DNA of 64,000 bases from Candidatus Halobonum tyrrellensis G22 (GCF_000495475.1 NZ_ASGZ01000002.1:62001-126000); one strand, 5' to 3'; numbered from the stretch's first letter, positions 16,806 through 33,237 are shown. Notes: generated by a model not told the origin, from the sequence alone. Program-made: numbers and translations.

Positions 16806-16838
16806 ACGGGTCGCGGTCGGCCTCTTCGTCCTCGGTTC

Positions 16839-18041
16839 TCAGTTCGTCGCGCCCGTCTCTACGTCGGGGTCGTCCACCTCTCCGTCGACCGCGCGCCGGT
16901 AGCGCTCCTCCGCCCGCGTCGCCACCGCGTCCCAGTCGAACCGCTCGGCGCGGGTGGTCGGCGGCGTCGGCGGGCGCGCGCCCGACAGTGCGTCGTCGAG
17001 CGCTCGCGCGAACGCCTCCACCGTCGGGTCGACCAGGAACCCGCCGTCGCCGACCACCTCGCTCGCCGCCGAGTCGGGGTGGTCGGCCGCGACGACCGTG
17101 CAGTCGGCCGCCATCGCCTCCGCACACGAGATGCCGAACCCCTCGCGGGTCGACGCCGAGGCGAACACGCGCGCGGCGCGCATCTGCCCGAGGACGTCCT
17201 CGTACTCGTCGAGGAAGCCGAGGAGCGTGACCCGGTCGGCGTTCGACAGCCCCGCCGCCCGCTCGCGGAGGTGGTCGAGTTCCGGACCCTCGCCGACGAT
17301 CCCGAGAGTGGCGTCGTGCGCCTCGGCGACCCGGTCGAACGCGTCGAGGAGCACGTCGACCCGCTTGTCGGCGATCAGCCGCCCCGCGAACAGCACGTCG
17401 AACCCGGGTTCGCCGTCGCGCCGGTGGGACGTGTCGGGGAGCGGGGCCGACCGGATCTGGTCGACGTCGATGCCGTTGGGCACCACCTCGATGTCGGCGC
17501 GCCTCGGCCCCATGCCCATCCGCGCGAGTTTGTCCGCGGTGACCCCCGAGACGGCGATCGGGTGCTGGGGGACGGCGGCGGTGAGCCGTTCGACCACTTT
17601 CCCCCCGAGCGCCAGCCGACCGAGATAGTCGTCCCAGTAGTCCGCGCCCCAGACTTCGTGCCAGACCGTCACGAGCGGGACGTCCCGGAGGAGGGTCGCG
17701 AGCCGCGACGAGAGCACGGGGAAGTAGGGGAACACCGACGCGACGACGACGTCGTGGTCGTCGACCTGGCGGGCGAACGGCGGGAGCAGGCGGACGGAGA
17801 AGTCGATCGCTTCGGTGATCGACCGGCGTCCCTCCTCCTCGTAGAGGTCGGCCGCGTCGGCGACCGCGCGGAGCGTCATCCCCTCGTGGGCCATCTCCGC
17901 GGGCCCGTCCCAGTAGTGGCGGCCGTATATCGTCACGTCGTGGCCGCGGTCGGCGAGGCGGGTTCCGATCTCGTGGACGCGCTTCTGTGCGCCGCCGGTG
18001 ACGAACGGGTAGACCACGTTCGTGACGAAGGCGACATCCAT
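16839..18041 (-). CDS. family 4 glycosyltransferase
   Basis: A 400-residue GT-B-fold enzyme. The acceptor domain starts MDVAFVTNVVYPFVTGGAQKRVHEI, typical of GT4. The donor domain has VLFAGRLIADKRVDVLLDAF near residue 230, LGIVGEGPE, and the ExFGxxxxE motif STREGFGISCAEAMA near 305-318 that binds the nucleotide-sugar phosphate. No membrane segments, so cytoplasmic. It presumably adds a sugar to a lipid-linked glycan, perhaps in the same pathway as the GT2 gene that ends 33 nt away in convergent orientation. Confidence 0.88.
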   Translation of the reverse strand: MDVAFVTNVVYPFVTGGAQKRVHEIGTRLADRGHDVTIYGRHYWDGPAEMAHEGMTLRAVADAADLYEEEGRRSITEAIDFSVRLLPPFARQVDDHDVVVASVFPYFPVLSSRLATLLRDVPLVTVWHEVWGADYWDDYLGRLALGGKVVERLTAAVPQHPIAVSGVTADKLARMGMGPRRADIEVVPNGIDVDQIRSAPLPDTSHRRDGEPGFDVLFAGRLIADKRVDVLLDAFDRVAEAHDATLGIVGEGPELDHLRERAAGLSNADRVTLLGFLDEYEDVLGQMRAARVFASASTREGFGISCAEAMAADCTVVAADHPDSAASEVVGDGGFLVDPTVEAFARALDDALSGARPPTPPTTRAERFDWDAVATRAEERYRRAVDGEVDDPDVETGATN

Positions 18042-18229
18042 CTACCCGTACCTCTCCGAACGCCCACTTGTAGCTTCGTGCTCGGCGACCGACCACCGGG
18101 TCACCGACCCCGAGTCGCGGAGCGACGGGTCGCCGTCGGCTCGGTACCCGTCGCCCGTCGGTCACCGTCGCCTACCCCGGATCGCCGATACCGACACACT
18201 GACCCGAACCACCCCCGTCGTCGGTCGGT

Positions 18230-19615
18230 GTGACCGAGGAGGGGCTCGGGGGTCGACTGCTCGCCGCGTGGCGACGCACCGTCTCGCTGTCGGCGCCGAT
18301 CGCCGTCCAGCAGACGTTCAACACGCTGATGCGGACGGTCGACATCGTCGTCACCGGACTCTTCTCGCCGGCGGCCGTCGCCGCGGTCGGTCTCGCGGAC
18401 CTGTACGCGCAGGTGCCGCTCCGACTCGGGCTGGCGCTCGGCACCGGCGCCATCGCCCTCTCCAGTCAGGACACCGGCCGCGGCGACGCCGTCGCCCGCG
18501 ACCGGGCGATAACGCAGGCGCTCCTGATGGGACTCCTCGTCGGCCTGCCGCTCGTTCTGGTGGCGGTCACCGTCTCGCCGCAACTCGTCGGCGTCCTCGG
18601 CGCCGAACCCGCCGTCGTCGAGGCGGGGTCGGCGTACCTCGCACTCGTGCTCGCCGTCGCGCCGATGCGCATCGTCGGACTCGTCGGCGCGCGGTCGCTC
18701 CAGGGGACGGGCGACACCGTGACGCCGATGGCGGTCAACATCGTCGCGAACCTGCTCAACATCGCGATCACGGTGGGAACCGGCCTCGGTCTCGGACCGC
18801 TCCCGCGGCTGGGCATGGTCGGCGTCGGTCTCGGAACCGCCGTCAGCCGGACGCTCGAAGCCGTCCTGATCACGGCCGCGATCCGGAGCCCGTTGACCGA
18901 CCTCTCGTTCGCCCGGCCGCGGAGTCTCACGATCACCCGTCAACTCGTCGCGGTGAGCCTCCCCAACTTCGCCGAGGGGATGAGCACGTCGGTGGCGAAC
19001 TTCCCGTTCAACTCGCTGTTGCTGCTGTTCGGGACGGAGGTCACCGCCGCCTACCACATCGGCCGCCGCGTCTACCAGCAGTTCACCGGGCCGCTCTACC
19101 GCTCGTACAGCACCGCCGCGAGCATCGTCGTCGGACAGGCGCTCGGCGAGGGCGACCCGACGGAAGCGCGCTTCTCCGGGGTCGCCATCACGGCGCTGAG
19201 CGTGCTCACGCTCGGGGTCGCCGGCGTCGTCCTCTTCGCCGGCGCCGAACCGATCGCGGACCTGTTCACGAACGACCCCCCGACGCTGGCGTACGCCGTC
19301 GCGTTCACCCGCGTCTTCGCCGTCTCGATGGTGTTCTTCGGGCTGTTCTTCCCGCTCGCGGGGGGCCTCCGCGGTGCGGGCGACACGCGGACCCCCTTCT
19401 ACGCGCGGTTCACCGGAACCTTCGGGTTCATGCTCGGGTTCGGGTACGTCGTCGGGGTGCGACTCGACTACGGTCTCCCTGGCGTCTACGCGGGGATCGT
19501 GCTCAGCTACGCGTGGTGGGCGCTCGTGGTGGTCGTCGGCTTCCGCTGGGGCGACTGGGCGGACACGGCCGCGGAGATGGTGGCCGAACGGGCGGACGCC
19601 GCCGACTCTAACTGA
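18230..19615 (+). CDS. MATE family efflux transporter
   Basis: A 461-residue polytopic protein with about twelve transmembrane helices in two related halves. The N-terminal half begins LSAPIAVQQTFNTLMRTVDIVVTGLFSPAAVAAVGLADLY, the usual MATE helix 1-2 layout. GARSLQGTGDTVTPM is the conserved inter-helix motif, and its second-half counterpart LRGAGDTRTPFYARF is near residue 383. The family exports cationic drugs or metabolites by Na+ or H+ antiport. The substrate is unknown. GTG 18230 is the only start close to the first helix. Confidence 0.9.
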   Translation: MTEEGLGGRLLAAWRRTVSLSAPIAVQQTFNTLMRTVDIVVTGLFSPAAVAAVGLADLYAQVPLRLGLALGTGAIALSSQDTGRGDAVARDRAITQALLMGLLVGLPLVLVAVTVSPQLVGVLGAEPAVVEAGSAYLALVLAVAPMRIVGLVGARSLQGTGDTVTPMAVNIVANLLNIAITVGTGLGLGPLPRLGMVGVGLGTAVSRTLEAVLITAAIRSPLTDLSFARPRSLTITRQLVAVSLPNFAEGMSTSVANFPFNSLLLLFGTEVTAAYHIGRRVYQQFTGPLYRSYSTAASIVVGQALGEGDPTEARFSGVAITALSVLTLGVAGVVLFAGAEPIADLFTNDPPTLAYAVAFTRVFAVSMVFFGLFFPLAGGLRGAGDTRTPFYARFTGTFGFMLGFGYVVGVRLDYGLPGVYAGIVLSYAWWALVVVVGFRWGDWADTAAEMVAERADAADSN

Positions 19616-19646: not shown

Positions 19647-20246
19647 CTACTCCGAGCGGCGGTCGGCGGTCCGCCGCCGAGTCGCCAGTCGCCAGAGCGT
19701 GCCGACGCCGGGGAAGCCGTCGAGCGCCCAGACGCCGAACAGGACCGCCGCGAGAACGAGTTGGAAGCCGAACCCGCTCGTCAGGAGGTCGGTCGGCGAG
19801 AGCGACGAGAGGTATCGAAACTGCCCCTCCCACCGCTCGAGGTGATAGAGGAGGCTGTCGGCGGGGTACGTCGGGGCCGGGAGGAACGGCCACAGGAGGA
19901 ACCCGACGCGGCCGAACTCCCCCGAGAGGAGCGATCCGTACGAGTCGCCGAGGAGGTGGGTGAGGGCGCCGACGGAGAAGGCGCCCGCGAGTTCCGACCG
20001 GCCGTAGCGGCGGGCCGCGAGGGCGACGACCACGCAGAGCGGGACGACCGTCACCAGCGAGTGGCCGACCGCGCGGCCGTCGTAGACGCCGAACCACCAG
20101 TTGAGCGGCTTGTCGACGAGGTCTGGAAACTGCGTCCCGAACGCGACGACGAGAGTCCCCACCCCGCTCGGCGTCCGCCGGTACCACACCCGGCTGCCGA
20201 CCGTGTAGACGAGGTAGCCGACGGCGAGGTGTCCCCACGGCATCAT
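19647..20246 (-). CDS. YdjM-like membrane-bound metal-dependent hydrolase
   Basis: A 199-residue membrane protein of the YdjM/DUF457 family (putative metal-dependent hydrolases). It has MPWGHLAVGYL at the N-terminus, FGTQFPDLVDKP near residue 36, AVGHSLV near 60 and LTHLLGDSYGS near 93: four short motifs with the His and Asp residues thought to bind metal in this family. Hydrophobic helices lie between them. Function in archaea is unknown. It is convergent with the MATE gene and divergent from the ABC transporter. Confidence 0.82.
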   Translation of the reverse strand: MMPWGHLAVGYLVYTVGSRVWYRRTPSGVGTLVVAFGTQFPDLVDKPLNWWFGVYDGRAVGHSLVTVVPLCVVVALAARRYGRSELAGAFSVGALTHLLGDSYGSLLSGEFGRVGFLLWPFLPAPTYPADSLLYHLERWEGQFRYLSSLSPTDLLTSGFGFQLVLAAVLFGVWALDGFPGVGTLWRLATRRRTADRRSE

Positions 20247-20435: not shown

Positions 20436-22217
20436 ATGTCGATCCTCTCTCGCGAGAAACTGTCCGCGCTCTCGGAAGCGGTCCGGTTCAGGCCGGGCCT
20501 CGGTATCGCCATCGTCGTCCTCAGCTTCGGGACGGCGTTGCTCGAAGGGATCGGGCTCGGGTTCCTCCTCCCCATCCTCGAACTCACCCGGTCGTCGACG
20601 ACGCCGACGGACGCCGAGGGAGTGCTCGGCGTGTTCGTTCGGGTCTACTCGTTTCTCGGAGTACCGCTCACCCTCGAGTACCTGATCCTCGGCATCGCCA
20701 GTGTGATGACCGTCCGGTTCGGTCTGAGCTTCGTCACCGGGTGGCTGCAGGCGATTTTGAGCCTGAGCTACCAGCGTCACCTCCGTCAACGACTCTTCGA
20801 GTCGCTGGTGTACGGGCCCATCGACTACATCGACCGGACGGGATCGGACGAACTCCTCAACAGCGTGATCACGGAGACCAACCGGGCGGGCGGTATCGTG
20901 ATGGCGGCGTTCAAGATAGCGGAGGTCCTCCTCCGCGGCGCCGTCTACCTCGCCATCGCCGCGGTACTCGCGCCGACGCTGACGCTCGTCGCGCTCGTCG
21001 GACTCGGGGTGAGCACGCTCTCGGTCCGGTACGTCCTCGAACCCGCCTACACCGTCGGTGACGACGTGGCGGACGCGAACGACCGGATCCAGACCATCTC
21101 CCAGACGGGCATCCAGGGGATGCGCGACGTCCGTCTGTTCAACCTGCGGTCGGAGTTGGTCGACCAGATGCGGAGCGTGCTCGGCAGCTACGTCTCGGAC
21201 AGCGTCGAACTCAGGCGGAACCAGGCCGCGCTGAACAGCCTCAACCAGCTCACGAACGCGCTCGTCGTCTTCGGGCTGGTGTACGCCGGCTTCCGGTTCA
21301 CCGGTCTCTCGCTCGCGCGGCTCGGCGTGTTCCTCTTCGCCGTCTTCCGGCTCTCGCCGGTCGTGAACCAGGTCAACAACGCGCTGTACCACCTCGACGG
21401 ACAGCTTCCCCACCTCCTCCGCGTCGACGCTCGACTCGACGAACTCGCCGAGCGCACCTCGCCGGACGCCGCCGGCGAGCGGCCGGTCGACTCCGTCGAC
21501 CGCGTCGAGTTCGACGGCGTGTCGTTCTCCTACGGAGACGGCGAGGAGGTGCTCCGGGACGTGTCGTTTGCGGTCGAGCGCGGCGAGAAGGTCGCGCTCG
21601 TCGGTCCCTCGGGCGCGGGCAAGTCGACGGTCGTCTCGCTCCTCGGCCGCCTCCAGACGACCGACGCCGGTCGCGTCCTCGCGGACGGCGTCCCCGTCGA
21701 CGAGTTCGACGTCGAGCAGTGGCGCTCGCGACTCGCCGTCGTGCGTCAGAACCCGTTCATCTTCGACGACACCCTGTGGGAGAACGTGACGATCGGGAAC
21801 CGCGACGCCTCCCGGGAGGCGGTCGAGCGCGTCTGTGAGGTCGCACGCGTCACCGAGTTCCTCCCCGAGTTGCCCGACGGGTACGAGACGGAACTCGGCG
21901 AGGGGGGGATCCGGCTGTCGGGCGGCCAACAGCAGCGCGTCGCCATCGCGCGCGCACTGCTCAAGGACGCCGACGTGTTGGTCCTCGACGAGGCGACGAG
22001 CGAACTCGACTCGAACATCGAGCGGGAGGTGTACGAGGGTATCCGGTCGCTCGAAGACCGGTACGCGACGATCAGTATCGCACACCGCCTCTCGACCATC
22101 GACGACGCCGACCGCATCTACACGCTCGTCGACGGCTCCGTGACGGAGGTCGGAACCCACGACCAACTTCTCGACTCCGACGGGACGTACGCCGACCTGT
22201 ACGCCACCCAGTCGTAG
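20436..22217 (+). CDS. ABC transporter, fused permease-ATPase (putative lasso-peptide exporter)
   Basis: A 593-residue half-transporter. Residues about 15-320 form a six-helix exporter-type membrane domain. Residues about 345-590 are the ATPase, with Walker A GPSGAGKST at 390-398, Q-loop VVRQNPFIFDD, signature LSGGQQQR at about 494, Walker B VLVLDEATSELD and H-loop SIAHRLST. It should act as a homodimer. ATG 20436 is chosen because earlier in-frame sequence is antisense to the neighbouring gene. Its position beside kinase, precursor and lasso-processing genes makes it the likely D-type exporter and immunity protein, although lipid-linked glycan export cannot be excluded. Confidence 0.88.
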   Translation: MSILSREKLSALSEAVRFRPGLGIAIVVLSFGTALLEGIGLGFLLPILELTRSSTTPTDAEGVLGVFVRVYSFLGVPLTLEYLILGIASVMTVRFGLSFVTGWLQAILSLSYQRHLRQRLFESLVYGPIDYIDRTGSDELLNSVITETNRAGGIVMAAFKIAEVLLRGAVYLAIAAVLAPTLTLVALVGLGVSTLSVRYVLEPAYTVGDDVADANDRIQTISQTGIQGMRDVRLFNLRSELVDQMRSVLGSYVSDSVELRRNQAALNSLNQLTNALVVFGLVYAGFRFTGLSLARLGVFLFAVFRLSPVVNQVNNALYHLDGQLPHLLRVDARLDELAERTSPDAAGERPVDSVDRVEFDGVSFSYGDGEEVLRDVSFAVERGEKVALVGPSGAGKSTVVSLLGRLQTTDAGRVLADGVPVDEFDVEQWRSRLAVVRQNPFIFDDTLWENVTIGNRDASREAVERVCEVARVTEFLPELPDGYETELGEGGIRLSGGQQQRVAIARALLKDADVLVLDEATSELDSNIEREVYEGIRSLEDRYATISIAHRLSTIDDADRIYTLVDGSVTEVGTHDQLLDSDGTYADLYATQS

Positions 22218-22286
22218 TCGTCTCCGCCTGGCTCGGTACGTCCACTCGGCCGGGCGTCGTGCGGGCAGTCCCCGCGGGATGCGTGA

Positions 22287-22294
22287 GTATAAAT
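22287..22294 (+). promoter_or_regulatory. TATA box of the HPr-kinase-like gene
   Basis: GTATAAAT lies about 28 nt before ATG 22319. It rules out the longer frame from GTG 22259 and favours ATG 22319 over ATG 22307, as a leaderless start. Confidence 0.55.
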
Positions 22295-22318
22295 GACGGG
22301 AGCGTAATGGTCTACGAG

Positions 22319-23230
22319 ATGAATGGAAGCGGGCCGTATTACTACTCCGCGTACGACCTGACGATCCGGTCCACGTTCGATCTTCCGGAGCTACCGTCGG
22401 TCGAGCGAGACGAGTCGGATATCGACGTCGAGTTCGTTCACGGAGCAGTCGAGCCCGTCCCCGAATCGGTCGAAGGGGTCGGGGGTCGTCGTATCGAGGC
22501 GACGGCGGGTGCGTGCCGACTCACGTACGAGTCGGTCGGGTCGTTCCTAGTCGAGGGAGGTCGACGCATCGTCTGCGACCCGCTCTCGGGGGACGTTCCG
22601 GAACGGGACGTCTTTCGTCGATTGCTGGAAAACGAGATGCTCGGCTTGATACTGTACCAACGCGACCACCTCGTCTTACATGCCAGTGCCGTTTCGGTCG
22701 ACGGCCGAGCCGCGGTATTTCTCGGTCCGAGGGGTGCGGGGAAGTCGACGACCGCCGCGGCGTTCCAGACGAACGGCTATCCCATGCTCGAAGACGACGT
22801 AGTCGGGATCCGGTTCGACGACGACGGGCCGACGGTGGTCCCGGGTGTCCCGCAGTTGCGGCTGAAACCCGACGCGGCGGCGGCGCTCGGGGTCACCGAG
22901 GCCTCCACTCCCGCTCCCGACTCCTGGTACGAGAAGCGGTACCTGCAGGTCGACGAGGTTCCCGATCCCGCCCCGCTCGCTTGGTGTTATCTCCTCCGGG
23001 ACGGTGACCAAGTCGGGTTGGAGGAGGTGTCCGGATCGGATCGATTGTTGGAACTCATCTCGCGCACACATGCACGTGGACTGCTCTCCGATACGGAGCA
23101 GTCACCGGACCACTTCGAACAGTGTTCGCGCGTCGCCCAGATGATCCGGTTCGGGGAGTTAAAACGACCACGAGATCACGCTGTGCTCGGGTCGATCGTC
23201 GACACCGTATCCGAGAGTATGAGGTCGTGA
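22319..23230 (+). CDS. HPr-kinase-like P-loop protein of a lasso-peptide cluster
   Basis: A 303-residue protein. After an N-terminal beta-rich region (about 1-110), it has LVLHASAVSVDGRAAVFLG leading into a P-loop GPRGAGKST at 136-144, then LEDDVVGI, the acidic segment following the P-loop in HprK/P-type kinases. This arrangement is found in the HPr-kinase-related proteins of lasso-peptide clusters; in Paenibacillus such a kinase phosphorylates the C-terminal serine of the peptide. Here it is convergent with the precursor gene and ends 41 nt from it. Peptide phosphorylation is a plausible but unproven role: the predicted precursor has Ser49 and Thr50 near, not at, its C-terminus. Confidence 0.78.
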   Translation: MNGSGPYYYSAYDLTIRSTFDLPELPSVERDESDIDVEFVHGAVEPVPESVEGVGGRRIEATAGACRLTYESVGSFLVEGGRRIVCDPLSGDVPERDVFRRLLENEMLGLILYQRDHLVLHASAVSVDGRAAVFLGPRGAGKSTTAAAFQTNGYPMLEDDVVGIRFDDDGPTVVPGVPQLRLKPDAAAALGVTEASTPAPDSWYEKRYLQVDEVPDPAPLAWCYLLRDGDQVGLEEVSGSDRLLELISRTHARGLLSDTEQSPDHFEQCSRVAQMIRFGELKRPRDHAVLGSIVDTVSESMRS

Positions 23231-23271
23231 CGTCTGATAAGTCAATAAATAGGGATACCGCCGTCTGCCCG

Positions 23272-23436
23272 TTACTTCGCCGGCTGGGTCGAACCGACGA
23301 CGACGCCGTTAGTCGCCTCCGTGTACTGGTCAGGCTTCAGTCCTTGCTTGTTTAGCTTTTCAGTGATCTGTTCAACCGAGCCGAATTCGGTAACTTCGGG
23401 AGACGTGTACTCCCGGTTTGATTGGCTGCCTTTCAT
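23272..23436 (-). CDS. putative lasso-peptide precursor (54 residues)
   Basis: An ATG at 23436 starts a 54-codon frame ending TAA at 23274-23272. The leader contains Y10-x2-P13-x-V15-x3-G19-x5-T25, matching the lasso leader consensus YxxPxLxxxGxxxxxT that the B1 (PqqD-like) protein recognises. The segment after Thr25 is the presumed core. If cleaved at the usual spot two residues after Thr25, it begins Lys27 and the first acidic residue (Asp36) is at position 10, unusual for a lasso ring. Starting at Leu28, Asp36 is position 9. Starting at Gly32, Glu40 is position 9, a classical Gly1-Glu9 ring, with a tail ending VVVGSTQPAK. Codon use is AT-richer than in neighbours. Directly upstream, on the same strand, lie the cyclase, B2 and B1 genes. 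Confidence 0.75.
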   Translation of the reverse strand: MKGSQSNREYTSPEVTEFGSVEQITEKLNKQGLKPDQYTEATNGVVVGSTQPAK

Positions 23437-23465
23437 TTCGCGATCGTTCCTATATCCTCACCTGA

Positions 23466-23473
23466 CTTAAACC
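23466..23473 (-). promoter_or_regulatory. probable TATA element of the precursor gene
   Basis: On the minus strand GTTTAAGT, centred about 33 nt before the ATG at 23436, so transcription would start a few bases before the start codon. A second AT-rich run, GGATATAGG (about 23449-23457), is too close to act as TATA box. The precursor may therefore be transcribed separately and more strongly than the enzyme genes. Confidence 0.4.
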
Positions 23474-23567
23474 CACTGGGTAATTCAACCGTAATCTAAC
23501 AAATTTGCAAGTTCTAATCGGACGGATTTTACGAGCGAATGATCGGCCACGGGGGTCCGACGAGTCC

Positions 23568-25454
23568 TCACCGTGCCGAATCACGTTTCTCAGGCTCGTA
23601 CGCGTCGACCCAAACGGACAGCGAGAGAGCACGCCACAGCGAGCGCGCATCCCGTGTGTCGTTCGACCCGACGAAGCGATCGTACGCCTCCTGTAGCGCG
23701 GTCGGGTCGATGTACGCCTCCACCGGTCCCGGGTCAGCGACGAGGCGTCGAAGCCGTTCGTCCTCGCGGGAGAGTGAGTTCCAGAATCCCTGGCTCATGT
23801 CCGTCTTCCAGGGCCGTCTCCGAATCTTCTCCGGGAGCCGGCCCCTGAGCGACCGCCGAATGATCGACCGGGTCCACCCATCGGAGAGCTGCTGCGACGG
23901 GGGAATCGCGAGGGAGAACTCGACCAGCCGCTTGTCGGTGAACGGGTACCACGGTTCGACATCGAACGCTGCAGTCGCGAGGTCGGTCGTTTCGAGGCTC
24001 GCGGTTATCATCCCCGACAGGAGCGAGCGATACTGACGCCGACGGCCGGTTTCGGTGAGGAAGGCGGTGTTCGACTCCCGACCCTTCAGCCGTTCTCGGA
24101 TGCCCGACCGTTCGGCGAACTCCGGGTTCAGAGTCGGGTTCTCCCGGTCGTTCAAGACCGGTTCCCCCCGTAGTCGGCGACGAACTCTCCTCACCGGAGG
24201 TGGGAGGAGTGGTTCCACGGCGTTACTGAGGAACAGACGGTGTCGTCGCGCACCCCCGACCTCTGACATCGCCTGGATCTGGGTAAACAGCTGCCACCAG
24301 CGGCCCGTCCGCAGTAACTCGCCCAACAGCCCGAGCCCGTATCCGGTGGCGCTGTCACCGAGCGCACCCTCCAGGAGGACATCCACTCCGGTTTCGTCCG
24401 CACGTTTCGCCCGTTCCCAGATAGCGTGGTGCATCGTGTCGTGCGGCGGCACGTCGTAGTGTTGCATCATCCGCTCTCGGTCCCCGAACGACCCGACATC
24501 GTCTAGGAACACGTAGTGGGGCACGATCCCCTCCCGTTGGGTCACCGTCTCGATGAAGTCACGTTCGTCCGCGGCGGGGGCGTCGTCGTACACGTTCGAG
24601 AACGCGTGGAGCGGTTGGTCCGTCCGCAGGAACTCGCGAGCCGTGACAGTGATCGACGACGAGTCCAGACCGCCGCTGAGCGCGGTACCGACGGTACCGC
24701 TCGCCCGGAGCCGACAGTCGACCGCCTGGTCGAACAGTTCGCGGAACCGACGCTCGTAGGCCGCGTCCGACCCGAGCGTGACCGTCCGGGTCGGGTCGAG
24801 GTCCCAGTACTGCCACCGGTCGGACCCGTCGAGCCGAACGCGGGCCGCGTGTGCCGGGGGGAGCCGACTCAGGTCCCGGTAGTACGTCCGCTCCTTGTCG
24901 TCGAACAGGCCGACGAGGAAGTCCCCGACCTTCGTTTCGTCGACGGTCCTCGAGACGAACGGGAGCGTCAACAGCGCCTTCAGTTCGGTCGCGACCGCGA
25001 ACGCGTCGGCACCCTCGTAGTAGTACAGCGGCTTCACGCCGAACCGGTCACGGCCGCAGAACACGGAGCCGTCGTCGGCGTCCCAGATCGCGAACGCGAA
25101 CGCGCCGATCAGGTGGTCGACGCACGCGTCACCCCACTCCCGGTAGGCCGCGAGCAGGAGACGACTATCCGGGATCGGATGGCCGGGGTCGGGAACGTCG
25201 AGCGTCTCGAGCAGTTCGCCTCGGTTGTCGAGACGCGCGTCCGAGACGACGACGAGTCCGTCCTCGCGGTACGGCTGGTCGTCGAACGCGGACTCCGGCG
25301 TCGTCCGTAACTGCTGGTGTCCGAGCGCGACGGCGTCGTCACACCACGCTCCCCGGCCGTCGGGACCGCGGTGGTCGATGGCGTCGAGCATCCCATCCGC
25401 GTGGTCGACGGCTCCCACCCCACCTCGATCGAAGATGGCGACGATCCCGCTCAC
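23568..25454 (-). CDS. asparagine-synthase-like lasso cyclase (C protein)
   Basis: A 628-residue protein. Residues 1-200 resemble the glutaminase half of asparagine synthetase B, but the protein starts MSGIVAIFD, so the catalytic Cys2 is replaced by Ser and glutamine hydrolysis should be lost, as in McjC-type cyclases. The synthetase half has the ATP-binding SGGLDSS motif at 260-266. In lasso pathways this enzyme adenylates the ring Asp/Glu side chain and couples it to the core N-terminus. GTG 25454 overlaps the B2 stop codon by 4 nt, showing translational coupling. An exopolysaccharide AsnB-like role is the alternative, but B1/B2 neighbours argue for lasso. Confidence 0.86.
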   Translation of the reverse strand: MSGIVAIFDRGGVGAVDHADGMLDAIDHRGPDGRGAWCDDAVALGHQQLRTTPESAFDDQPYREDGLVVVSDARLDNRGELLETLDVPDPGHPIPDSRLLLAAYREWGDACVDHLIGAFAFAIWDADDGSVFCGRDRFGVKPLYYYEGADAFAVATELKALLTLPFVSRTVDETKVGDFLVGLFDDKERTYYRDLSRLPPAHAARVRLDGSDRWQYWDLDPTRTVTLGSDAAYERRFRELFDQAVDCRLRASGTVGTALSGGLDSSSITVTAREFLRTDQPLHAFSNVYDDAPAADERDFIETVTQREGIVPHYVFLDDVGSFGDRERMMQHYDVPPHDTMHHAIWERAKRADETGVDVLLEGALGDSATGYGLGLLGELLRTGRWWQLFTQIQAMSEVGGARRHRLFLSNAVEPLLPPPVRRVRRRLRGEPVLNDRENPTLNPEFAERSGIRERLKGRESNTAFLTETGRRRQYRSLLSGMITASLETTDLATAAFDVEPWYPFTDKRLVEFSLAIPPSQQLSDGWTRSIIRRSLRGRLPEKIRRRPWKTDMSQGFWNSLSREDERLRRLVADPGPVEAYIDPTALQEAYDRFVGSNDTRDARSLWRALSLSVWVDAYEPEKRDSAR

Positions 25455-25897
25455 GATTCGCCGTCCTCGTCGAGCGGGGGCAGGGGCGTGAACCGCGAGA
25501 GGTCCTCCACCTCCCCGATCAGGATGTCGTCCCCGTACTCGAGCCAGCTGTGCGCCTTCATCCCGCTCTCGACGGCGGTGTCGACGCCGATCCGATGGAC
25601 CGGGGTGTACCCGTACAGCCTGAGGAGCGTCTCGGCCGTCAGCGACCGGACCAGACAGGTTCGGTCCCCGGGAAGCCCGCGGTCGGCCACGTCGACCGCG
25701 CCCGCGACCCGAGCGGGCGTCGGGTCGCCGGGGACGACCGGCGCTGCGGCGTCGCCAGCCCACAACAGCAGGTCACGAAGCCGGGCGAACGACCCGACGA
25801 CGACGCCGACCGAGACCGTCACCAACAGCGCCGCCGCGGTCAGCAGCCGCGCCTGATCGCCGAACCCGAGCGACAGAGCCGTCGAGAGCGTCCTCAT
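25451..25897 (-). CDS. lasso peptide biosynthesis B2 protein (leader peptidase)
   Basis: A 148-residue protein with a hydrophobic N-terminal segment (about 18-36) and a transglutaminase-like cysteine protease core: Cys81 in RTCLVRSLTAETLLRLYG and His116 in KAHSWLEY, with an acidic third residue likely just after. This Cys-His layout and spacing match the B2 (McjB C-terminal) peptidase that removes the leader peptide using ATP-dependent activation in the lasso complex. ATG 25897 follows the B1 stop by 13 nt; an overlapping ATG at 25921 is a weaker alternative. It is in an operon with B1 and the cyclase. Confidence 0.85.
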   Translation of the reverse strand: MRTLSTALSLGFGDQARLLTAAALLVTVSVGVVVGSFARLRDLLLWAGDAAAPVVPGDPTPARVAGAVDVADRGLPGDRTCLVRSLTAETLLRLYGYTPVHRIGVDTAVESGMKAHSWLEYGDDILIGEVEDLSRFTPLPPLDEDGES

Positions 25898-25910
25898 CCG
25901 TGCCCGACCC

Positions 25911-26198
25911 TCACTCCGCATCGACCGTGACGAGGTCCTTGTCGGCCAGTTCCGCGAGGAGTTCGTCGACGTCCTCACGACACCGGTCGTACCCCACGTC
26001 GTACTCGTCGGTTACCGCCTCGTACACCTCCTCGACCGTGTGCGGCTCTTGAAGCGACTCCCAGACGAACGTGCCCACCTCGTTGAACCCGTAGTACTTC
26101 CCCGCGTCGGTGTGGAGGACGACCGTCTCACCGTCGATGGTCGTCGAGAGGCAGTTCTCGGCCGCCACTATCTCGTGTGAATTATCGAACGTGTTCAC
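25911..26198 (-). CDS. PqqD-like lasso leader-recognition protein (B1)
   Basis: A 95-residue PqqD/RRE-fold protein: short strands (CLSTTIDGETVVLHTDAGKY), the conserved YYGFNEVGTFVWESL, then a winged-helix-like HTVEEVYEAVTDEYDV and a C-terminal helix (CREDVDELLAELADKDLV). RRE proteins bind the leader of RiPP precursors and deliver it to the peptidase; here the leader motif of the 23272-23436 peptide is the expected ligand. The start is GTG 26198 with an AGAGGGG ribosome-binding site about 8 nt upstream. It is first gene of the B1-B2-C operon. Confidence 0.87.
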   Translation of the reverse strand: MNTFDNSHEIVAAENCLSTTIDGETVVLHTDAGKYYGFNEVGTFVWESLQEPHTVEEVYEAVTDEYDVGYDRCREDVDELLAELADKDLVTVDAE

Positions 26199-26236
26199 TT
26201 ATACCCCTCTGTAATAGAAGGTACTTTTCGCTCACC

Positions 26237-26245
26237 ATACATAAA
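26237..26245 (-). promoter_or_regulatory. TATA box of the B1-B2-cyclase operon
   Basis: Minus-strand TTTATGTAT; initiation about 27 nt on would give a leader of about 16 nt containing AGAGGGG before GTG 26198. A second TATA-like GTATAAG at 26199-26205 is too close to the start to serve. Confidence 0.45.
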
Positions 26246-26378
26246 CCTCATTGTCGCGTCGTGCCCGGACCGAGGACGGCCGCCCCAGACGCGACGTCGT
26301 GGCTGGGGACGCCCGTCGGCGATCGAGATCGCATCCACCTCACAGTTCCTCCCCCGCTGTGGTGGGTCGGAGCCGGGA

Positions 26379-27557
26379 TCAGCCCCGGTCGAACAGCCGT
26401 CCGACGAGGTCACGCCCGATCCGATACGGTCGGACGAGGTAGTAGAGCGGGTAGAGACTCGGATTGAGCGACATCGACTCGAAGTCGACCTTGCGCGGGG
26501 AGAAGACCACGTCGACGAGTTCGAGAGCGGACCCGACGAGACCGTCGTTCGAGAACAGGACGGTCGCTATCGGCTCCAAACGGAGCGACGTACACAGCGG
26601 GTCCCGTCGAAGGAACGAAGCGAGGAGCGAAGCGCTCAGGCCGTACTGGGGGTGTTCCTCGAGTTCGCGTTCTACAGCCGTCGGTAACCGTACCTCGGCC
26701 AGTCTCGCTACGACAGCAAGCCCGAAGAGCACGGCACTCCGCCAGTCGTACCGGTCGGCGCGCGCCAACACCGTCTCCCAGGCCACGTCCCGCTGGAGGA
26801 GCAAAGCGACGTCGCACACCCACGACAACCGGCGCCAGCCGTGTTTCGTCCCGTGGACGAGGAGGAGCATCGCCCTGTCCTCCGGGGAGAGCACCGGTAC
26901 GGTGCGCCCGGTGAGCGAGAGCGGCGTACGCCGGGCCCACAGCTCGTCGAATATCGTCGCGTCCGGACGACTGCCGCCGATGAACTCGAAGCGCAACTCG
27001 ATCGGGATCTGGTCGTCGTGGTTCAGGAATCGGAACTCCTTCCCCCACCGGAACACCGTGCCGTCGACCAGCGTCTCGGGTCGGACGTCGGAGTAGTTCG
27101 TCTGTTCGTACCCCAGTTCCAAGAGGAGTCGACGTGCGTCTAGGACGTCCTCCTTCGCGACGAGAAAGTCGAGGTCCCCGTACCACCGGAGACCGGGGTC
27201 GTCGTACGCGAACTCGGCGACCACGGGCCCCTTGTACGGTATCGCTCGGATACCCTCGTCGTCGAACTCGCCGTGAAGGGTGTGGAGACGGTGAACGCAC
27301 CGCAGGTTTCGCATGGCGTTTTGTCGGTGAAGCGAGTTGACTCGGCGCCGCACCTCGACGGGAGCGAGATCTGAGGCTCGAACCGTGGTGAACGCGGTGT
27401 GGAGTTGCGAGATCAACGAGTGGTGCCGTGCCAGGTCGACTACCCGCGTCCAGTCCGTGACTTCCAGTGCCGCCTTCACCAAGCATCGAGGGTCGTCGGG
27501 GGACGAGGCGAACGAGAGTAGCCTGAACAGGAAGTCCGTCTCGGGGTCCGTCCTCAT
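26379..27557 (-). CDS. nucleotidyltransferase family protein associated with lasso clusters
   Basis: A 392-residue protein of the uncharacterised nucleotidyltransferase group (PF14907-like). Helical N-terminus, then YKGPVV near 108, and the nucleotidyltransferase signature WYGDLDFLV with Asp128 and Asp130 as metal ligands. Further on, a helical region includes LLLVHGTKHGWRRLSWVCDVALLL, characteristic of the family. Such genes recur in lasso-peptide and capsule loci; whether they nucleotidylate the peptide or a sugar is unknown. ATG 27557 is preferred to the in-frame ATG at 27596. It ends 181 nt before the B1 start and is on the same strand as the B genes. Confidence 0.8.
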   Translation of the reverse strand: MRTDPETDFLFRLLSFASSPDDPRCLVKAALEVTDWTRVVDLARHHSLISQLHTAFTTVRASDLAPVEVRRRVNSLHRQNAMRNLRCVHRLHTLHGEFDDEGIRAIPYKGPVVAEFAYDDPGLRWYGDLDFLVAKEDVLDARRLLLELGYEQTNYSDVRPETLVDGTVFRWGKEFRFLNHDDQIPIELRFEFIGGSRPDATIFDELWARRTPLSLTGRTVPVLSPEDRAMLLLVHGTKHGWRRLSWVCDVALLLQRDVAWETVLARADRYDWRSAVLFGLAVVARLAEVRLPTAVERELEEHPQYGLSASLLASFLRRDPLCTSLRLEPIATVLFSNDGLVGSALELVDVVFSPRKVDFESMSLNPSLYPLYYLVRPYRIGRDLVGRLFDRG

Positions 27558-27931
27558 CGGGGGTTGTCTTCGGCCTCGAATCCCGGGTCGATACACACGG
27601 GGTGGCCCCGATTACGTCGGCGTCTCATCGGGTTGTCCGCTCCTTCGGGGGACTGTCGACTCCGATATCGGGCGACCCGACTGTCCACACACCGCCGTCG
27701 TCCGCCGACCCGAACGAGAGCGCACATCGTGGTAATTCCCTCAGACCGAACTGATCGGCTCACTGGTCATAACCCTATCGTGATGTGAATGGAGGGTCGA
27801 ACGAGGGAGCGACCGGGACGACTCGTCAGTGAACGGATCGACGGTGCCGGGAGATCAGCGGTCGTGAATCGAAAGAGGGAGATTTGGTTCAAGGTAAAGC
27901 TATATGCGCCCAACCAGATTCTGTACCCGTA
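27558..27931. other. divergent intergenic region with TATA box at 27899-27906
   Basis: About 370 bp without a supported gene between the nucleotidyltransferase and the sulfatase-like gene. GCTATATG at 27899-27906 lies 29 nt before ATG 27932 and is the likely promoter for the glycan operon that follows. Confidence 0.55.
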
Positions 27932-29194
27932 ATGACCTGTGCAGGGGATCGCGTGATCCTGTTGTCGGCCGACGCTCTCCGCGCGGACCACCTCTCGTGT
28001 TACGGCTACCACCGTGACACCTCTCCCGTTCTCGACGAGTTCGCGGAGGAGAGCGTCCGGTTTACGAACGCGTACAGCGCGAGTTCGCACACGCGCGAGG
28101 CGGTACCGGCGCTGCTCACCGGGGAGTTCCCCGACGTGGCGGTCGGAGCCGACTACCGGCTCGCGACCGAGACGGTGGCGTCGACGTTCGCCGAGGCGGG
28201 GTACGCGACGGGGGGGTTCCACTCGAACCCGTACGTCTCCCGGGCGTACGGGTTCGACCGGGGGTTCGACGAGTTCGACGACGACCTCCACCTCGGGAGG
28301 CACAAGCTCGTCGCGCTCGCACAGCGGGCGCTCGACAAACTGCGGAACCGCCACTACGCGCGTGCGGCGGAGATCAACGACCGGGCGCTCTCGTGGCTCG
28401 ACTCGCTCGGCGACGAGCCGTTCTTCCTGTGGAACCACTACATGGACACCCACGGGCCGTACGAACCGCCCGGCGAGTACGCGACGCTCTACCGCGAGTC
28501 GGAGGTCTCCGACCGCGACGCTCAGTCGCTCTACCGACGGGCGATCAGGGAGCCGGAGTCGATCACGCCCGACGAGCGCGACCTCCTGGTCAACCTGTAC
28601 GACGCCGAGATCCGGTACAACGACGAGAAGATCGGCGAGTTCCTCGACGCGCTCCGCGAGCGCGGCCTACTGGAGCGGTCGCTGGTGGTGGTGACCGCCG
28701 ACCACGGCGACGCGTTCGGCGAGCACGGCTACTACGAGCACCCCCGGTACCTCCACGACGAGACGACGCACGTGCCGCTGTTCGTCCGGCCGCCGGGCGG
28801 CGCCGACGGGGAGACGGTGTCGACGCCGGCGAGCACGCTCGACGTCGCGGCGACGTTCGAGCAGTTGCTCGGCCGGGACGTCGGCGCCGGGCGCGCGTCG
28901 CTGCTCGACCGGAACGAGACCGACCGGACCGTCTTCCTGCAAGCCCGCGGCGAAGACGACCACGCCGACGTCCGCCGGTACGCGGCGAAGACGCGCGAGG
29001 GGTCGTGTTACTGCGAGCGCGACCGGGAGTCGGGCGCGGTCGAGTTCGGCGACTCCGGCCGCGACCTGCGGAGCGACCTGGAGGCACACGTCGACCGGCG
29101 GGTCCGAGCCGAGAACGGCGAGGGCGGACCCGAGGGGGAGGCGGAAACCGAGGAGATCGAACGGCGGTTGAGCGCGCTGGGGTACAAGGAGTAG
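27932..29194 (+). CDS. sulfatase-like hydrolase (alkaline phosphatase superfamily)
   Basis: A 420-residue protein of the sulfatase/phosphoglycerol transferase superfamily. Metal-binding SADALRADHLSCYG is near residue 11. The nucleophile region is SASSHTREAVPALLTG, with Ser/Thr rather than the Cys of Cys-type sulfatases. HYMDTHGPYEPP is near 170, and TADHGDAFGEHG near 256 gives the second metal site. No signal peptide or membrane helix. It probably cleaves or transfers sulfate, phosphate or a phospho-group on glycans. The C-terminus ends RLSALGYKE, a tail shared by four other such proteins in the window. ATG 27932 is set by the TATA box. First gene of an operon with the GT4 gene one base downstream. 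Confidence 0.86.
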   Translation: MTCAGDRVILLSADALRADHLSCYGYHRDTSPVLDEFAEESVRFTNAYSASSHTREAVPALLTGEFPDVAVGADYRLATETVASTFAEAGYATGGFHSNPYVSRAYGFDRGFDEFDDDLHLGRHKLVALAQRALDKLRNRHYARAAEINDRALSWLDSLGDEPFFLWNHYMDTHGPYEPPGEYATLYRESEVSDRDAQSLYRRAIREPESITPDERDLLVNLYDAEIRYNDEKIGEFLDALRERGLLERSLVVVTADHGDAFGEHGYYEHPRYLHDETTHVPLFVRPPGGADGETVSTPASTLDVAATFEQLLGRDVGAGRASLLDRNETDRTVFLQARGEDDHADVRRYAAKTREGSCYCERDRESGAVEFGDSGRDLRSDLEAHVDRRVRAENGEGGPEGEAETEEIERRLSALGYKE

Positions 29195-29195
29195 G

Positions 29196-30353
29196 ATGGA
29201 CGACTCGCTACGCGTCTGTCTCGTCTCCAAGCAGTTCCCCCCCGGCGTCGGCGGCGGGGAGACGTACGCACACGAACTCGCGAACGGGCTCGGGGAGCGA
29301 GGACACGACGTCGACGTCTACACCCAGTGGGTCGACAGCCCCGACGAGAGCGTCGACACCCACGAGAACGTCACCGTCCACCGGGTCTGTAAGGCGCGCC
29401 GGAAGTTGGTCACGTTCGAGACGCTGTACTTCAGCTACCGCGTCCGGCGAACCGTCGACCTCGAACGGTACGACGTGGTCCACGGGACGCTCATGCCCGC
29501 GTCGACGGTCGCGGTGACGCCGTTCACCGACGTCGACGTCCCCGTAGTGCTGACGAGCCACGGAACCTCGGTCGGGGAGGCGAAGGCGGTGGCGCTGGAG
29601 ACGCCCGCGGACTACCTGCTGAAGTTCTTCTTCCACCCGACGAACGTGGTGATGGACTACGTCGCCAGCCGGGACGCGGACGCGGTGATCGCGATCAGCG
29701 ACCACGCCCGCGAGCAGTTGACGACGGTCTACGGCCTCGACGAGAGCGACGTGGAGACGATTCCACACGGGGTGGATACGGACCGGTTCTACCCGCGGGA
29801 GGAACGGCATCCGGCGGTCGACCCGGAGCGGTTCACCGTGCTATACGTCGGCCGGCTCGGAGCGAGGAAGGGGCTGGGGCTCGCGCTGCGGGCTGTCGCG
29901 GAAGTCGACGACCCGAACGTCGAGTTCCTGATCGCCGGCACAGGACGACACGAGGCCCGACTGCGCGAGCTAGCCGAGGAGCTGGGCGTGAGCGAGCAGG
30001 TCCGGTTCCTCGGGTTCGTCCCCGACGAGCAGCTCCCGACGCTGTACTCGTCGGCGGACGTGTTTCTGTTACCCTCGCGGTACGAGGGGTTCGGACTCGT
30101 GTTGCTGGAGGCGATGGCGTGCGGGACGCCGGCGATCGGGGTGGACGCGGGAGGGATTCCGACGGCTGTCGAGAGCGCCTCGAGCGGTATCGTCGCCGAC
30201 CGAACTCCGGAGGCGGTCTCGAACGCGATCGGTCGGATCCTCGATCGGTCGCGCGAAGGTGACGCGAGAGTGTCGTCGACCGACGACCGACGGATGTCGT
30301 GGGAGGCGACGATACGACAGGTCGACGACGCGTACGCGAAGCTCCGCGCATGA
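29196..30353 (+). CDS. family 4 glycosyltransferase
   Basis: A 385-residue GT-B enzyme: SKQFPPGVGGGETYAHELANGL at the N-terminus, VLYVGRLGARKGLGLALRAV near residue 213, then SRYEGFGLVLLEAMACGTP near 290, carrying the donor-phosphate glutamates. The start is immediately after the sulfatase-like stop (1-nt spacer), and the stop overlaps the next gene's ATG (ATGA). The three genes are thus one translationally coupled unit, pointing to synthesis of a modified surface glycan. Sugar specificity cannot be read. Confidence 0.9.
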   Translation: MDDSLRVCLVSKQFPPGVGGGETYAHELANGLGERGHDVDVYTQWVDSPDESVDTHENVTVHRVCKARRKLVTFETLYFSYRVRRTVDLERYDVVHGTLMPASTVAVTPFTDVDVPVVLTSHGTSVGEAKAVALETPADYLLKFFFHPTNVVMDYVASRDADAVIAISDHAREQLTTVYGLDESDVETIPHGVDTDRFYPREERHPAVDPERFTVLYVGRLGARKGLGLALRAVAEVDDPNVEFLIAGTGRHEARLRELAEELGVSEQVRFLGFVPDEQLPTLYSSADVFLLPSRYEGFGLVLLEAMACGTPAIGVDAGGIPTAVESASSGIVADRTPEAVSNAIGRILDRSREGDARVSSTDDRRMSWEATIRQVDDAYAKLRA

Positions 30354-32203
30354 ACTGGAAGTACACGTCGGTACGGGTGGTCCGAAAGTACGCGGCGATT
30401 CCGGTCGCCCTCTTCTGTCTCCTCGCGTTGTACGTCTTCGTCTCGATCGGATACCGTGCGGTCCTCGGTCCCGTCCTCGGTGGCGTCGTCGGCGGCCTCG
30501 TGGCCGTCGTCGCGCTCGTTCTCTTCGACGCCTCGACCGAGCTCCGTTCCACGACCGACGGGGATCAGTCGCCGGCCGACTATCGGATATCGATAGCTCT
30601 CGCCGGCCTGTACGTGACCTCGATACTCGTCCTCTACCGACTGGTGTCCTACCAGCGGCCGTGGGTCCACTACGCCATCTTCGGCGGGTACGCGGGGTAC
30701 GTCGCCTACGATATCGCGACCGGCGCGAGCCGGAGACGGGTGGTCGCACAGCTGCTCGTCCTCACGTTCGTAACCTACTGGAGTACGCAGTTCGCGTTCC
30801 CCGCCGGGATGTACGGCCCGGACACCAAGTACCGCTACCTCCCCGCGGTCCGGACCGCTCTCACCACCGGCTACGTCTCGCTATCGCAACTCATCTACCT
30901 CGGGCACCTCACCTACGTGACCGCGACGACGGTGCTGATGGGGGTCTCCGCCCAGTTGGGCTACTACCTCCTGTCGGTCGTGGTCCTCACCGGGACGCTC
31001 CTCGTCATCTCGGTGATGGACGTCACGCTCCCGGCGATTCCGGACCGGGTCGCGCTGTACGCCGCTCTGATATTCGGCTGTATGAGCTGGACGCTCGGTC
31101 GTGGGTTCCAGCCGAACAAGCTCAACTTCTTCTACCCGCTCATCATCCTCGTCGGGATAGCTACGTTCGGGATCTTCATCCACAGGAGGACGCATCGTCG
31201 CTGGCTGGCGATCGCCGTCGTCGTCTCGCCCGCGATCATCTTCGGCCACCAGTTCAGCGCCGGAGCCGCGCTCGTGTTCCTCCTCACCATCGGGCTGTTC
31301 ACCTCGGTCGTCGTCTCCACTCTCCGAGAGGAGTACAGAGTCGTCTCGTACGGGTCGACGCTCGCGTTCGTCGCCGCCTACGGGCTCGGCATCTTCGGCA
31401 ACCCGATCCACTCGGGGGCGCTCCTCGGTCGGATCGTCGGGCTGTTCAACTCCATCTTCGCGCCCGCGGGCGGTGTGAGCGTCGGCGGGACCGCGGCGGG
31501 CGGTCCCGGCCGCTACTCGCAGCTCCCGCTCGACCTCCTGTTGGTTAACACCGCCGCGCAGGCGCTGCTGTTCGCGCTCGCCGTGTTCGGGGCCGCCGTC
31601 GCGCTCCGTCGCTCCAGGTGGGAGTTCGACTTCGGCATCGCCTGGATGGGGGTGCTCGCGGTCCTGCTGTTGGTCGGGCTGGTGTTCAACTCCGCGGACA
31701 CCCAGCCCCAGCGCTTCTACTCGCTGCTCGGACTGTTCGGGCTGAACGTCTTCGCCGGGGTGACGCTCGTCTGGCTCTGCGAGAACGGCCTCCCGGTCGG
31801 GCGGAAGACGGTCGCCGGGGTCGTCGCCGTGTTCTGCGTGCTGAGTTTAGTGTCCCCTGTGGCTGGTATGCACCTCTCGCCGTCCGGCGACCGGATCCCG
31901 CACTTCCAGCGGTTCGACCGGTCCGAGTCGATAGCCGGTGAGGAGTGGAGGGCGGAGTACGTTTCCGGAGAACCGACGAAAGAGTACAGGAGGATCGACG
32001 GATCGAGTGTTACGATCGATACTTCAGGGATGGTGGAGGGGTCCGTGTACACGTACGACCTCACCTCGCGTACGAGTGGGGTGGTCACCGACGTGGGGCT
32101 GAGTCTCGGCGGTCGACAGTTCGCGTTCGTACTGTTCGATCAAGACCCGAAGGAGGGCCGAATCTACACGAACGGGCGGTACGATGCGTATCGCCACGGG
32201 TGA
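30350..32203 (+). CDS. polytopic membrane protein of a glycan operon
   Basis: A 617-residue protein with about thirteen hydrophobic helices up to roughly residue 510, followed by an extracytoplasmic-looking tail of about 100 residues rich in Ser/Thr/Tyr. SGDRIPHFQRFDRSE begins that tail. The general layout resembles polysaccharide polymerases or GT-C glycosyltransferases, but I see no clear catalytic DxD or family motif, so no reaction is assigned. ATG 30350 overlaps the GT4 stop by 4 nt. Its position after sulfatase-like and GT4 genes suggests a role in glycan assembly or polymerisation. Confidence 0.7.
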   Translation: MNWKYTSVRVVRKYAAIPVALFCLLALYVFVSIGYRAVLGPVLGGVVGGLVAVVALVLFDASTELRSTTDGDQSPADYRISIALAGLYVTSILVLYRLVSYQRPWVHYAIFGGYAGYVAYDIATGASRRRVVAQLLVLTFVTYWSTQFAFPAGMYGPDTKYRYLPAVRTALTTGYVSLSQLIYLGHLTYVTATTVLMGVSAQLGYYLLSVVVLTGTLLVISVMDVTLPAIPDRVALYAALIFGCMSWTLGRGFQPNKLNFFYPLIILVGIATFGIFIHRRTHRRWLAIAVVVSPAIIFGHQFSAGAALVFLLTIGLFTSVVVSTLREEYRVVSYGSTLAFVAAYGLGIFGNPIHSGALLGRIVGLFNSIFAPAGGVSVGGTAAGGPGRYSQLPLDLLLVNTAAQALLFALAVFGAAVALRRSRWEFDFGIAWMGVLAVLLLVGLVFNSADTQPQRFYSLLGLFGLNVFAGVTLVWLCENGLPVGRKTVAGVVAVFCVLSLVSPVAGMHLSPSGDRIPHFQRFDRSESIAGEEWRAEYVSGEPTKEYRRIDGSSVTIDTSGMVEGSVYTYDLTSRTSGVVTDVGLSLGGRQFAFVLFDQDPKEGRIYTNGRYDAYRHG

Positions 32204-32214
32204 GCGACCTACGC

Positions 32215-33237
32215 TCAATGCCCGATTTCGGAGAGTAGTTCATGGAACTGCCTTCGAAATATCTCCTTTTGCGTCTTACCGTCGTACCTCCGTCCCCGGC
32301 GTTCAGCGGTCGCGGACATAGTCTCCCGTTCCGAGACGTCCCTACCAAAGTAGCCGGCCACACCGTCAGCGATACGTTCCGCCGAGGGTTCTACCACCAA
32401 CTCGCTGCTCACGCGTTCCGCCTCGGTCTTGTTACCGGTCGTCGTCGTCACGAGCGTCGGGAGACCCGCTCGAAGCGCTTCGAGAACGCTGACGGGGTAA
32501 CTGTCCGCGCGCGAGGGCTGGACATACAGCGACGCCCGTTCGAACTCGGCGCACAAGTCGTCAACGTATCCGCGGACGGTCACTCCCGGCTCTTGGTCCA
32601 ACTCGGGAGGGTAGCCACTGCCGACCAGTCTGAGACGCGCACCGGGGAACCGGTCTCTAACCAGTCGCCAGGCGTCGACGAGGATATCCTGCCCTTTGTA
32701 CTGCGCGAATCCGCCGACGGTGACCGCGGTGTTGGAAGCCAAGTCCGGGGTGACCGTTCCTAACTCGTCGTACAGATCCGGCTGGATGTAGGGGTGGGCA
32801 ATCCGGGTCGGGGCGTGGACTATCTCGTTGGTGTACTCGGCGGTGAACTCCGACACCGCGATCACCCCGTCGATGTACCGGTTGAAGGCCGTCTCCATCG
32901 CACTCATCCCGTATCGTCCAATCAAGCGGTTCAGAAACGGTTGGTCGTCCTCGTGACGACGGACTTGGTACAGCGACTGGTCGGCAGCGATGTAGATAAG
33001 CGTCGAATCGGAGAACAGTTGATGAGAGAGACTGCCGTACAAAGAGCGCGTTCCTTCGGCGATACAGACGTCGTACTCCCCCATCAGGAGACCATTGAGT
33101 ACCTCGACCGGTATCGTCCCCGCGACTCTGTCTACGGAGCACGTGTTGAGACCGTACAGGTCCGCGTCGATGGCGTCGGCGAAACCCTGGTGAGACGGGT
33201 GGGGACTCTCCCCGCAGTGGATCATCACTACCTGCAT
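32215..33237 (-). CDS. family 4 glycosyltransferase
   Basis: A 340-residue GT-B protein. The acceptor half is short (MQVVMIHCGESPHPSHQGFADAI). The donor half has AVTVGGFAQYKGQDILVDAW near 168, LRLVGSGYP, and SRADSYPVSVLEALRAGLP near 248-266, the equivalent of the ExFGxxxxE loop with Asp in place of the first Glu. It starts 7 nt after the stop of the sulfatase-like gene to its right and is transcribed with it. It is convergent with the membrane protein gene. Confidence 0.85.
   Translation of the reverse strand: MQVVMIHCGESPHPSHQGFADAIDADLYGLNTCSVDRVAGTIPVEVLNGLLMGEYDVCIAEGTRSLYGSLSHQLFSDSTLIYIAADQSLYQVRRHEDDQPFLNRLIGRYGMSAMETAFNRYIDGVIAVSEFTAEYTNEIVHAPTRIAHPYIQPDLYDELGTVTPDLASNTAVTVGGFAQYKGQDILVDAWRLVRDRFPGARLRLVGSGYPPELDQEPGVTVRGYVDDLCAEFERASLYVQPSRADSYPVSVLEALRAGLPTLVTTTTGNKTEAERVSSELVVEPSAERIADGVAGYFGRDVSERETMSATAERRGRRYDGKTQKEIFRRQFHELLSEIGH

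Follow-up and report, generated by a model that had tools for sequence, protein, structure and literature searches.

Lasso peptides are short peptides tied into a ring and are found mainly in bacteria. The stretch of DNA analysed here, 64 kb in length and hereafter called the window, comes from the haloarchaeon Candidatus Halobonum tyrrellensis G22, whose genome of 3.68 Mb is distributed over 72 contigs. Between positions 20436 and 27557 it carries the seven genes named in the preliminary description of this DNA, all of which are present, organized in two convergent units. The plus strand encodes an MsbA/HepA-like ABC protein with fused permease and ATPase, the presumed exporter D (20436-22217; PF00005, 111.7 bits; PF00664, 43.9 bits), and an HprK-like peptide kinase, K (22259-23230), which starts at a GTG at 22259 or, more probably, at an ATG at 22307. 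The minus strand unit consists, in order, of a PF14907 nucleotidyltransferase of the PsmN/BsfN type with a GDLD motif, N (26379-27557), a PqqD-like RiPP recognition element (RRE) protein, B1 (25911-26198), a transglutaminase-like leader peptidase, B2 (25451-25921), an asparagine-synthetase-like lasso cyclase with a GTG start, C (23568-25454), and, last, a lasso precursor of 54 residues, A (23272-23436; MKGSQSNREYTSPEVTEFGSVEQITEKLNKQGLKPDQYTEATNGVVVGSTQPAK). The gene of B2 shares 4 bases with that of C and 11 with that of B1. The precursor gene lies 131 bases past the stop of C, and a TATA-like TTTAAGT can be read about 35 nucleotides upstream of its ATG (23465-23471, minus strand). Given this element and this distance, the precursor may have a promoter of its own.

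The assignment of the biosynthetic proteins was evaluated with NCBIfam and Pfam profiles. With the lasso cyclase model NF033535, whose cut-off is 525, C reaches 599 bits, well above the 257 bits obtained with the asparagine synthase model and the 209 bits obtained with that of the XrtA/PEP-CTERM amidotransferase (eps_aminotran_1). Its N-terminus, MSGIV, has a serine in place of Cys2 of AsnB, as anticipated in the preliminary description, and Cys2 is likewise replaced in the haloarchaeal relatives. In an alignment with 14 relatives the ATP-site residues SGG.DSS are invariant, with a mean column identity of 60%. B2 scores 92.5 bits on the lasso B2 model NF033537 (cut-off 33) and 69.4 bits on PF13471; the cysteine and histidine of its proposed core are conserved in the alignment, and, after the histidine, a glutamate is found here at the place of an aspartate in most relatives. 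The search of B1, B2, and C against lasso profiles, proposed in the preliminary description, thus recognizes the last two, but not B1, which scores 68.7 bits on the lasso model NF033536 and stays below its cut-off of 80. B1 is nonetheless PqqD-like, as had been proposed, with 73 bits on PF05402 (cut-off 23.4) and with TbiB1 (5v1u), its best solved match, and the lasso PqqD-family chaperone 9x90 as best matches in the PDB. None of the cluster genes matches the signal peptidase models among these profiles.

The kinase is only weakly matched at the sequence level (TIGR04352, HprK_rel_A, E 6e-9, below cut-off). Its motif HASAV..GPRGAGKS..EDD corresponds to a His-Lys-Asp-Asp site and to the H...GxxGxGKS...DD signature described for BsfK (PMC10368454), and its AlphaFold model (pLDDT 88.7) resembles the folds of PEP carboxykinase (PEPCK) and HPr kinase in the PDB, which bears out the earlier designation as an HPr-kinase-like protein. 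The nucleotidyltransferase had been assigned to PF14907, and it scores 189 bits on this family (cut-off 31.2), with D128 and D130 invariant among 10 relatives. Relatives of the ABC exporter adjoin the B2 clusters in most haloarchaeal loci.

The leader pattern YxxP-x5-G-x5-T occurs in a single short open reading frame of the window, the 54-residue gene at 23436-23272, while shuffled sequences contain a mean of 0.22. The chance rate was estimated from these shuffles and from a search of 392 genomes of the class, translated in six frames, with a profile of the precursor. Of the 31 genomes with a B2 over cut-off this profile matches 30, and of the 361 others it matches 2 (Fisher p about 2e-41). 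Strong matches (E below 1e-8) are found in 14 genomes, namely that of the window and 13 of the 14 others with a cyclase in the locus, and at least 15 further haloarchaeal genomes have a homologous cluster with a homologue of the precursor next to it. None of the findings that the preliminary description had named as refuting its reading was obtained. The window precursor itself stays below the NCBIfam cut-offs (19.1 versus 33 and 12.8 versus 19). Residues Y10, P13, G19, T25, K30, G32, D36, and G48 are invariant in 18 aligned precursors. Among 29 distinct precursors gathered from related loci, the spacing between the tyrosine and the threonine was measured in 24 and is 15 in all of them, which is the classical Y(-17)/T(-2) geometry; a block K-x-G-x3-D, K30-x-G32-x3-D36 in the window precursor, is present in 27 of the 29. 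The lasso leader pattern first noticed in this short gene is that of a family that co-occurs with B2.

The cluster is flanked at 15516-19612 and 27884-33237 by genes for glycosyltransferases, a MatE transporter, and a sulfatase, and is probably part of a surface-glycan locus. These surroundings are what would be expected of a polysaccharide or HPr-rel-A type system, in which the amidotransferase, the HprK-related kinase, the PqqD-like protein, and the PF14907 protein would serve the glycan and the small open reading frame would be incidental, and the HprK_rel_A and eps_aminotran_1 models do match. Nonetheless, C scores 599 bits as a lasso cyclase against 209 bits on eps_aminotran_1, B2 is lasso-specific, and the small open reading frame accompanies B2 in 30 of 31 genomes. 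The position beside glycan genes is no argument against a RiPP, given that paeninodin and LPP clusters of Bacillota are also situated in capsule loci (PMC13381572). Such a system is considered highly improbable, and its HPr-rel-A/PEP-CTERM form is rejected on the profile scores. Several cyclase-bearing haloarchaeal clusters lie near glycosyltransferases and sulfatases that resemble those flanking the cluster of the window. This association with glycan genes is seen in 6 of 14 cyclase-bearing and 1 of 17 cyclase-less clusters (p 0.03), a weak difference given that 11 of these 17 are close relatives from one genus. A gene for a YdjM-like membrane protein adjoins that of the exporter (19647-20246, minus strand; PF04307, 43.4 bits). 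Among the related loci with at least one flanking gene in common, 7 contain it; it lies near the relatives in Halopiger, Natronoglomus, Halosimplex, Halorientalis, Halapricum, and Haloplanus, and is a possible accessory of the cluster.

A search of genome contigs with a single B2 protein as query returned no related loci, while the same search with an alignment of cyclases returned 18. In the cyclase tree, 16 haloarchaeal cyclases, including C of the window, form one clade (support 100/99) apart from the sampled cyclases of bacteria and of methanogen lineages. The members of this clade are encoded close to precursors with a YxxP leader. C is about 66-68% identical to the cyclase of Halosimplex carlsbadense, and the next grouping is that of the cyclase from plasmid pHALXA01 of Halopiger xanaduensis. 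An asparagine-synthase-like gene from the same genome as the window (contig C57) was left out, being too divergent to be placed (branch 8.6). Members of the Natrialbaceae, Haloarculaceae, and Haloferacaceae are mixed within the clade, which suggests transfer of the cluster among haloarchaea. Phage records contained no relative of B2, and a viral origin is unsupported. Outside the haloarchaea, four genomes of the phylum likewise have a lasso cyclase over cut-off; lasso cyclases of non-haloarchaeal archaea occur in locus L078 and in genomes G392, G410, G433, and G536, and among these cases a Methanomicrobia metagenome-assembled genome has a precursor with a WSTP leader and an acid at position 9 in the Thr(-2) register. 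Three loci have, adjoining the main cluster, a second precursor of canonical appearance, T-x|GxHFSxVDGNSGTTGNRG with Gly1-Asp8 (L068, 14878-15051; L071, 14687-14839; L073, 13088-13291), accompanied by a cyclase from a second clade of its own (100/100) and by a second kinase.

Not all haloarchaeal clusters of this kind have a cyclase. In 17 loci a B2 gene has none nearby, and none of their 16 host genomes has a cyclase over cut-off anywhere; one further genome that was tested (G086) does have one and belongs with the cyclase-bearing clusters. Genome G002 has a cyclase-like gene below cut-off about 20 kb from B2, and this may be a split cluster. The 16 cyclase-less genomes keep B1 and B2, and most of them also the kinase, the nucleotidyltransferase, and the exporter. 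It follows that the combination of genes, which had been called diagnostic of lasso loci, is diagnostic on account of the cyclase, given that B1, B2, kinase, nucleotidyltransferase, and exporter also occur together without it in Haloarcula and others. In Haloarcula, loci L044, L045, L047-L049, L051-L053, and L055-L057 hold B1, B2, K, N, and the ABC exporter without a cyclase, next to a strongly conserved precursor of 32 residues that ends in WWDHDDGYGKWS (WD in two species); 9 of the 11 species of this genus (g29) have exactly the sequence MKEYETPSVETYGTVEEKTNWWDHDDGYGKWS, and the remaining two have a similar one. Haloarcula hispanica, a cultured species, is probably among the carriers; an RRE cluster that comprises B1, B2, and a kinase has been described for it, and the published nearest match of that cluster is the one on the Halopiger plasmid (PMC10093198). 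In Salinigranum rubrum, several short precursors beginning MTYE(K/Q)PTLETYGRVESLTQ lie near one cyclase-less cluster (L036, 14114-17853), and a second cluster is found elsewhere (L039).

These cyclase-less clusters of haloarchaea are alike to the LPP systems, but have B2 instead of the signal peptidase of the latter, and those of Haloarcula are possibly linear phosphopeptide RiPPs that use B2. The same could be supposed for the window, with B1, B2, K, N, and the exporter at work and C silent or otherwise employed, since all genes other than C are common to LPP systems (PMC13381572) and to the cyclase-less clusters, and since the precursor has no acid at positions 7-9 in the Thr(-2) register. 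This is nevertheless improbable, because C is intact and conserved, as seen from its invariant ATP site and its 60% mean column identity over 14 relatives, and because precursors with the D36 motif occur together with C, while the cyclase-less clusters have shorter and different cores.

The reading that we favor, and consider very probable from the sequence comparisons, is that of a complete lasso-peptide cluster that belongs to the phosphorylated (bsf/paeninodin) type and, within it, to a subfamily of haloarchaea. B1 would bind the leader motif YTSPEV, and K, probably with the help of B1, would phosphorylate a serine of the core, after which N would decorate the phosphate with another group. 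B2 would cleave off the leader, C would activate the side chain of Asp36 with ATP and join it to the new N-terminus, and the ABC protein would export the product.

The position of the ring is where this precursor departs from the canonical pattern, a threonine at -2 followed by a ring of 7-9 residues. With Thr25 as -2, D36 is at position 10 of the core and is the sole acid within its first 13 residues. In the 29 precursors an aspartate or glutamate is found at positions 7-9, counted from Thr(-2), in 16 and is absent in 13, that of the window included; the cyclases that accompany these 13 are spread over several branches of their tree. The distance from the threonine to the lysine of K-x-G-x3-D is 4 in 14 precursors, 5 in five, 6 in three, 7 in three, and 8 in two. 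Given that no acid is available at positions 7-9, a macrolactam needs here either a displaced cleavage of the leader or a ring that exceeds nine residues. Asp36 is favored as the ring acceptor from the precursor alignment, being the most constant acid among the precursors. A cut by B2 one to three residues further on would give a core that starts at L28, N29, or K30 and a ring of 9, 8, or 7 residues, respectively; alternatively, a core that starts at K27 would be closed by D36 into a ring of 10. Residue 1 of the core would then be any one of these four. There are precedents for asparagine as residue 1, in metanodin (PMC12670498), and for a residue other than threonine at -2, in BsfA, which has isoleucine (PMC10368454). 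A register with Gly32 as residue 1 and Glu40 as acceptor (ring of 9) fits the window precursor and gives an acid at 7-9 in 20 precursors, but it fails in 7 relatives and was rejected. Overall, it appears reasonably probable that the lasso peptides of haloarchaea have a register unlike that of the characterized ones, in which the K-x-G-x3-D block, itself fixed, lies at a variable distance from Thr(-2) and either the core sets the cut of B2 or rings of 9-13 residues are formed. A relative's precursor in the cyanobacterium Fortiea (L079, 11956-12147) also lacks an acid at 7-9 from Thr(-2) and has an aspartate at 11, so that the shifted register may extend beyond archaea.

A ring of 10 or more residues would constrain threading less, and threading cannot be read from a sequence, so that the product could be a ring-closed, branched-cyclic macrolactam that is unthreaded and not a true lasso. 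To our knowledge, the characterized lasso cyclases make threaded products, which makes this outcome unlikely.

The target of the kinase also departs from what is known. Kinases of the paeninodin type modify a C-terminal serine and BsfK modifies Ser3 (PMC9266682, PMC10368454). The precursor of the window ends in lysine (GSTQPAK), and the target of K cannot be the C-terminal serine known from paeninodin. Only 3 of the 29 precursors end in serine, but 27 have a GS within 12 residues of the end, and Ser49, in this conserved motif, is therefore the best guess from the alignment.

The closest characterized counterpart is the bsf cluster of Bradymonas sediminis, which has the same A, B1, B2, C, ABC transporter, K with an H-G-G-G-K-S-D-D motif, and N (PMC10368454). 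BsfA differs in having Ile(-2), a Gly1-Asp8 ring, and phosphorylation at Ser3, whereas the precursors described here have a threonine at the -2 spacing, no acid at 7-9 in the case of the window, and a conserved serine near the C-terminus. The paeninodin and pseudomycoidin clusters of Bacillota share the HprK-type kinase, and that of pseudomycoidin also a PsmN-type nucleotidyltransferase (PMC9266682); they are often found in capsule loci (PMC13381572), as this cluster is in a glycan locus, and differ in the phosphorylation of the C-terminal serine and, for paeninodins, in a leader motif WxxP instead of YxxP. The LPP systems share the RRE, HprK-like kinase, NTP transferase, MsbA-like transporter, and position in capsule loci, but their leader peptidase is signal-peptidase-like and they lack a cyclase, where the cluster of the window has B2 and C (PMC13381572). 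A close archaeal counterpart is on pHALXA01 of Halopiger xanaduensis (NC_015658), with the same gene set, a cyclase 67% identical, and a precursor of the same family, but another gene order and a core that begins QVNKEGVASD. Its B2 is named 'lasso peptide biosynthesis B2 protein' in RefSeq. No gene is listed for its precursor (L041, 11422-11586) in PLSDB, whose table is incomplete, and small precursors may escape annotation.

The preliminary description had considered a kinase-containing cluster in a haloarchaeon to be notable. This cannot be maintained, given that the gene set equals that of bsf and that phosphorylated lasso clusters of bacteria contain a kinase and a nucleotidyltransferase as a rule (PMC10368454, PMC9266682). 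It was right that archaeal lasso clusters had already been predicted, since they count as one of the abundant classes of RiPP predicted for archaea (PMC12144867) and a relative is present on pHALXA01, and that few if any of the products are understood experimentally: no characterized archaeal lasso peptide was found in the papers searched, a set mostly outside the subscription journals.

The cluster of the window is thus one of a known kind, with a class of precursor that departs from two textbook features. The family offers a clear test of a supposedly general rule of lasso peptides, namely cleavage of the leader after Thr(-2) and a ring of 7-9 residues. Its cyclase-less sisters could reveal which functions the kinase, nucleotidyltransferase, and exporter common to both kinds of cluster have when no ring is made, and the recurrent position beside glycan genes, in Bacillota as in haloarchaea, hints at a role related to the cell surface.
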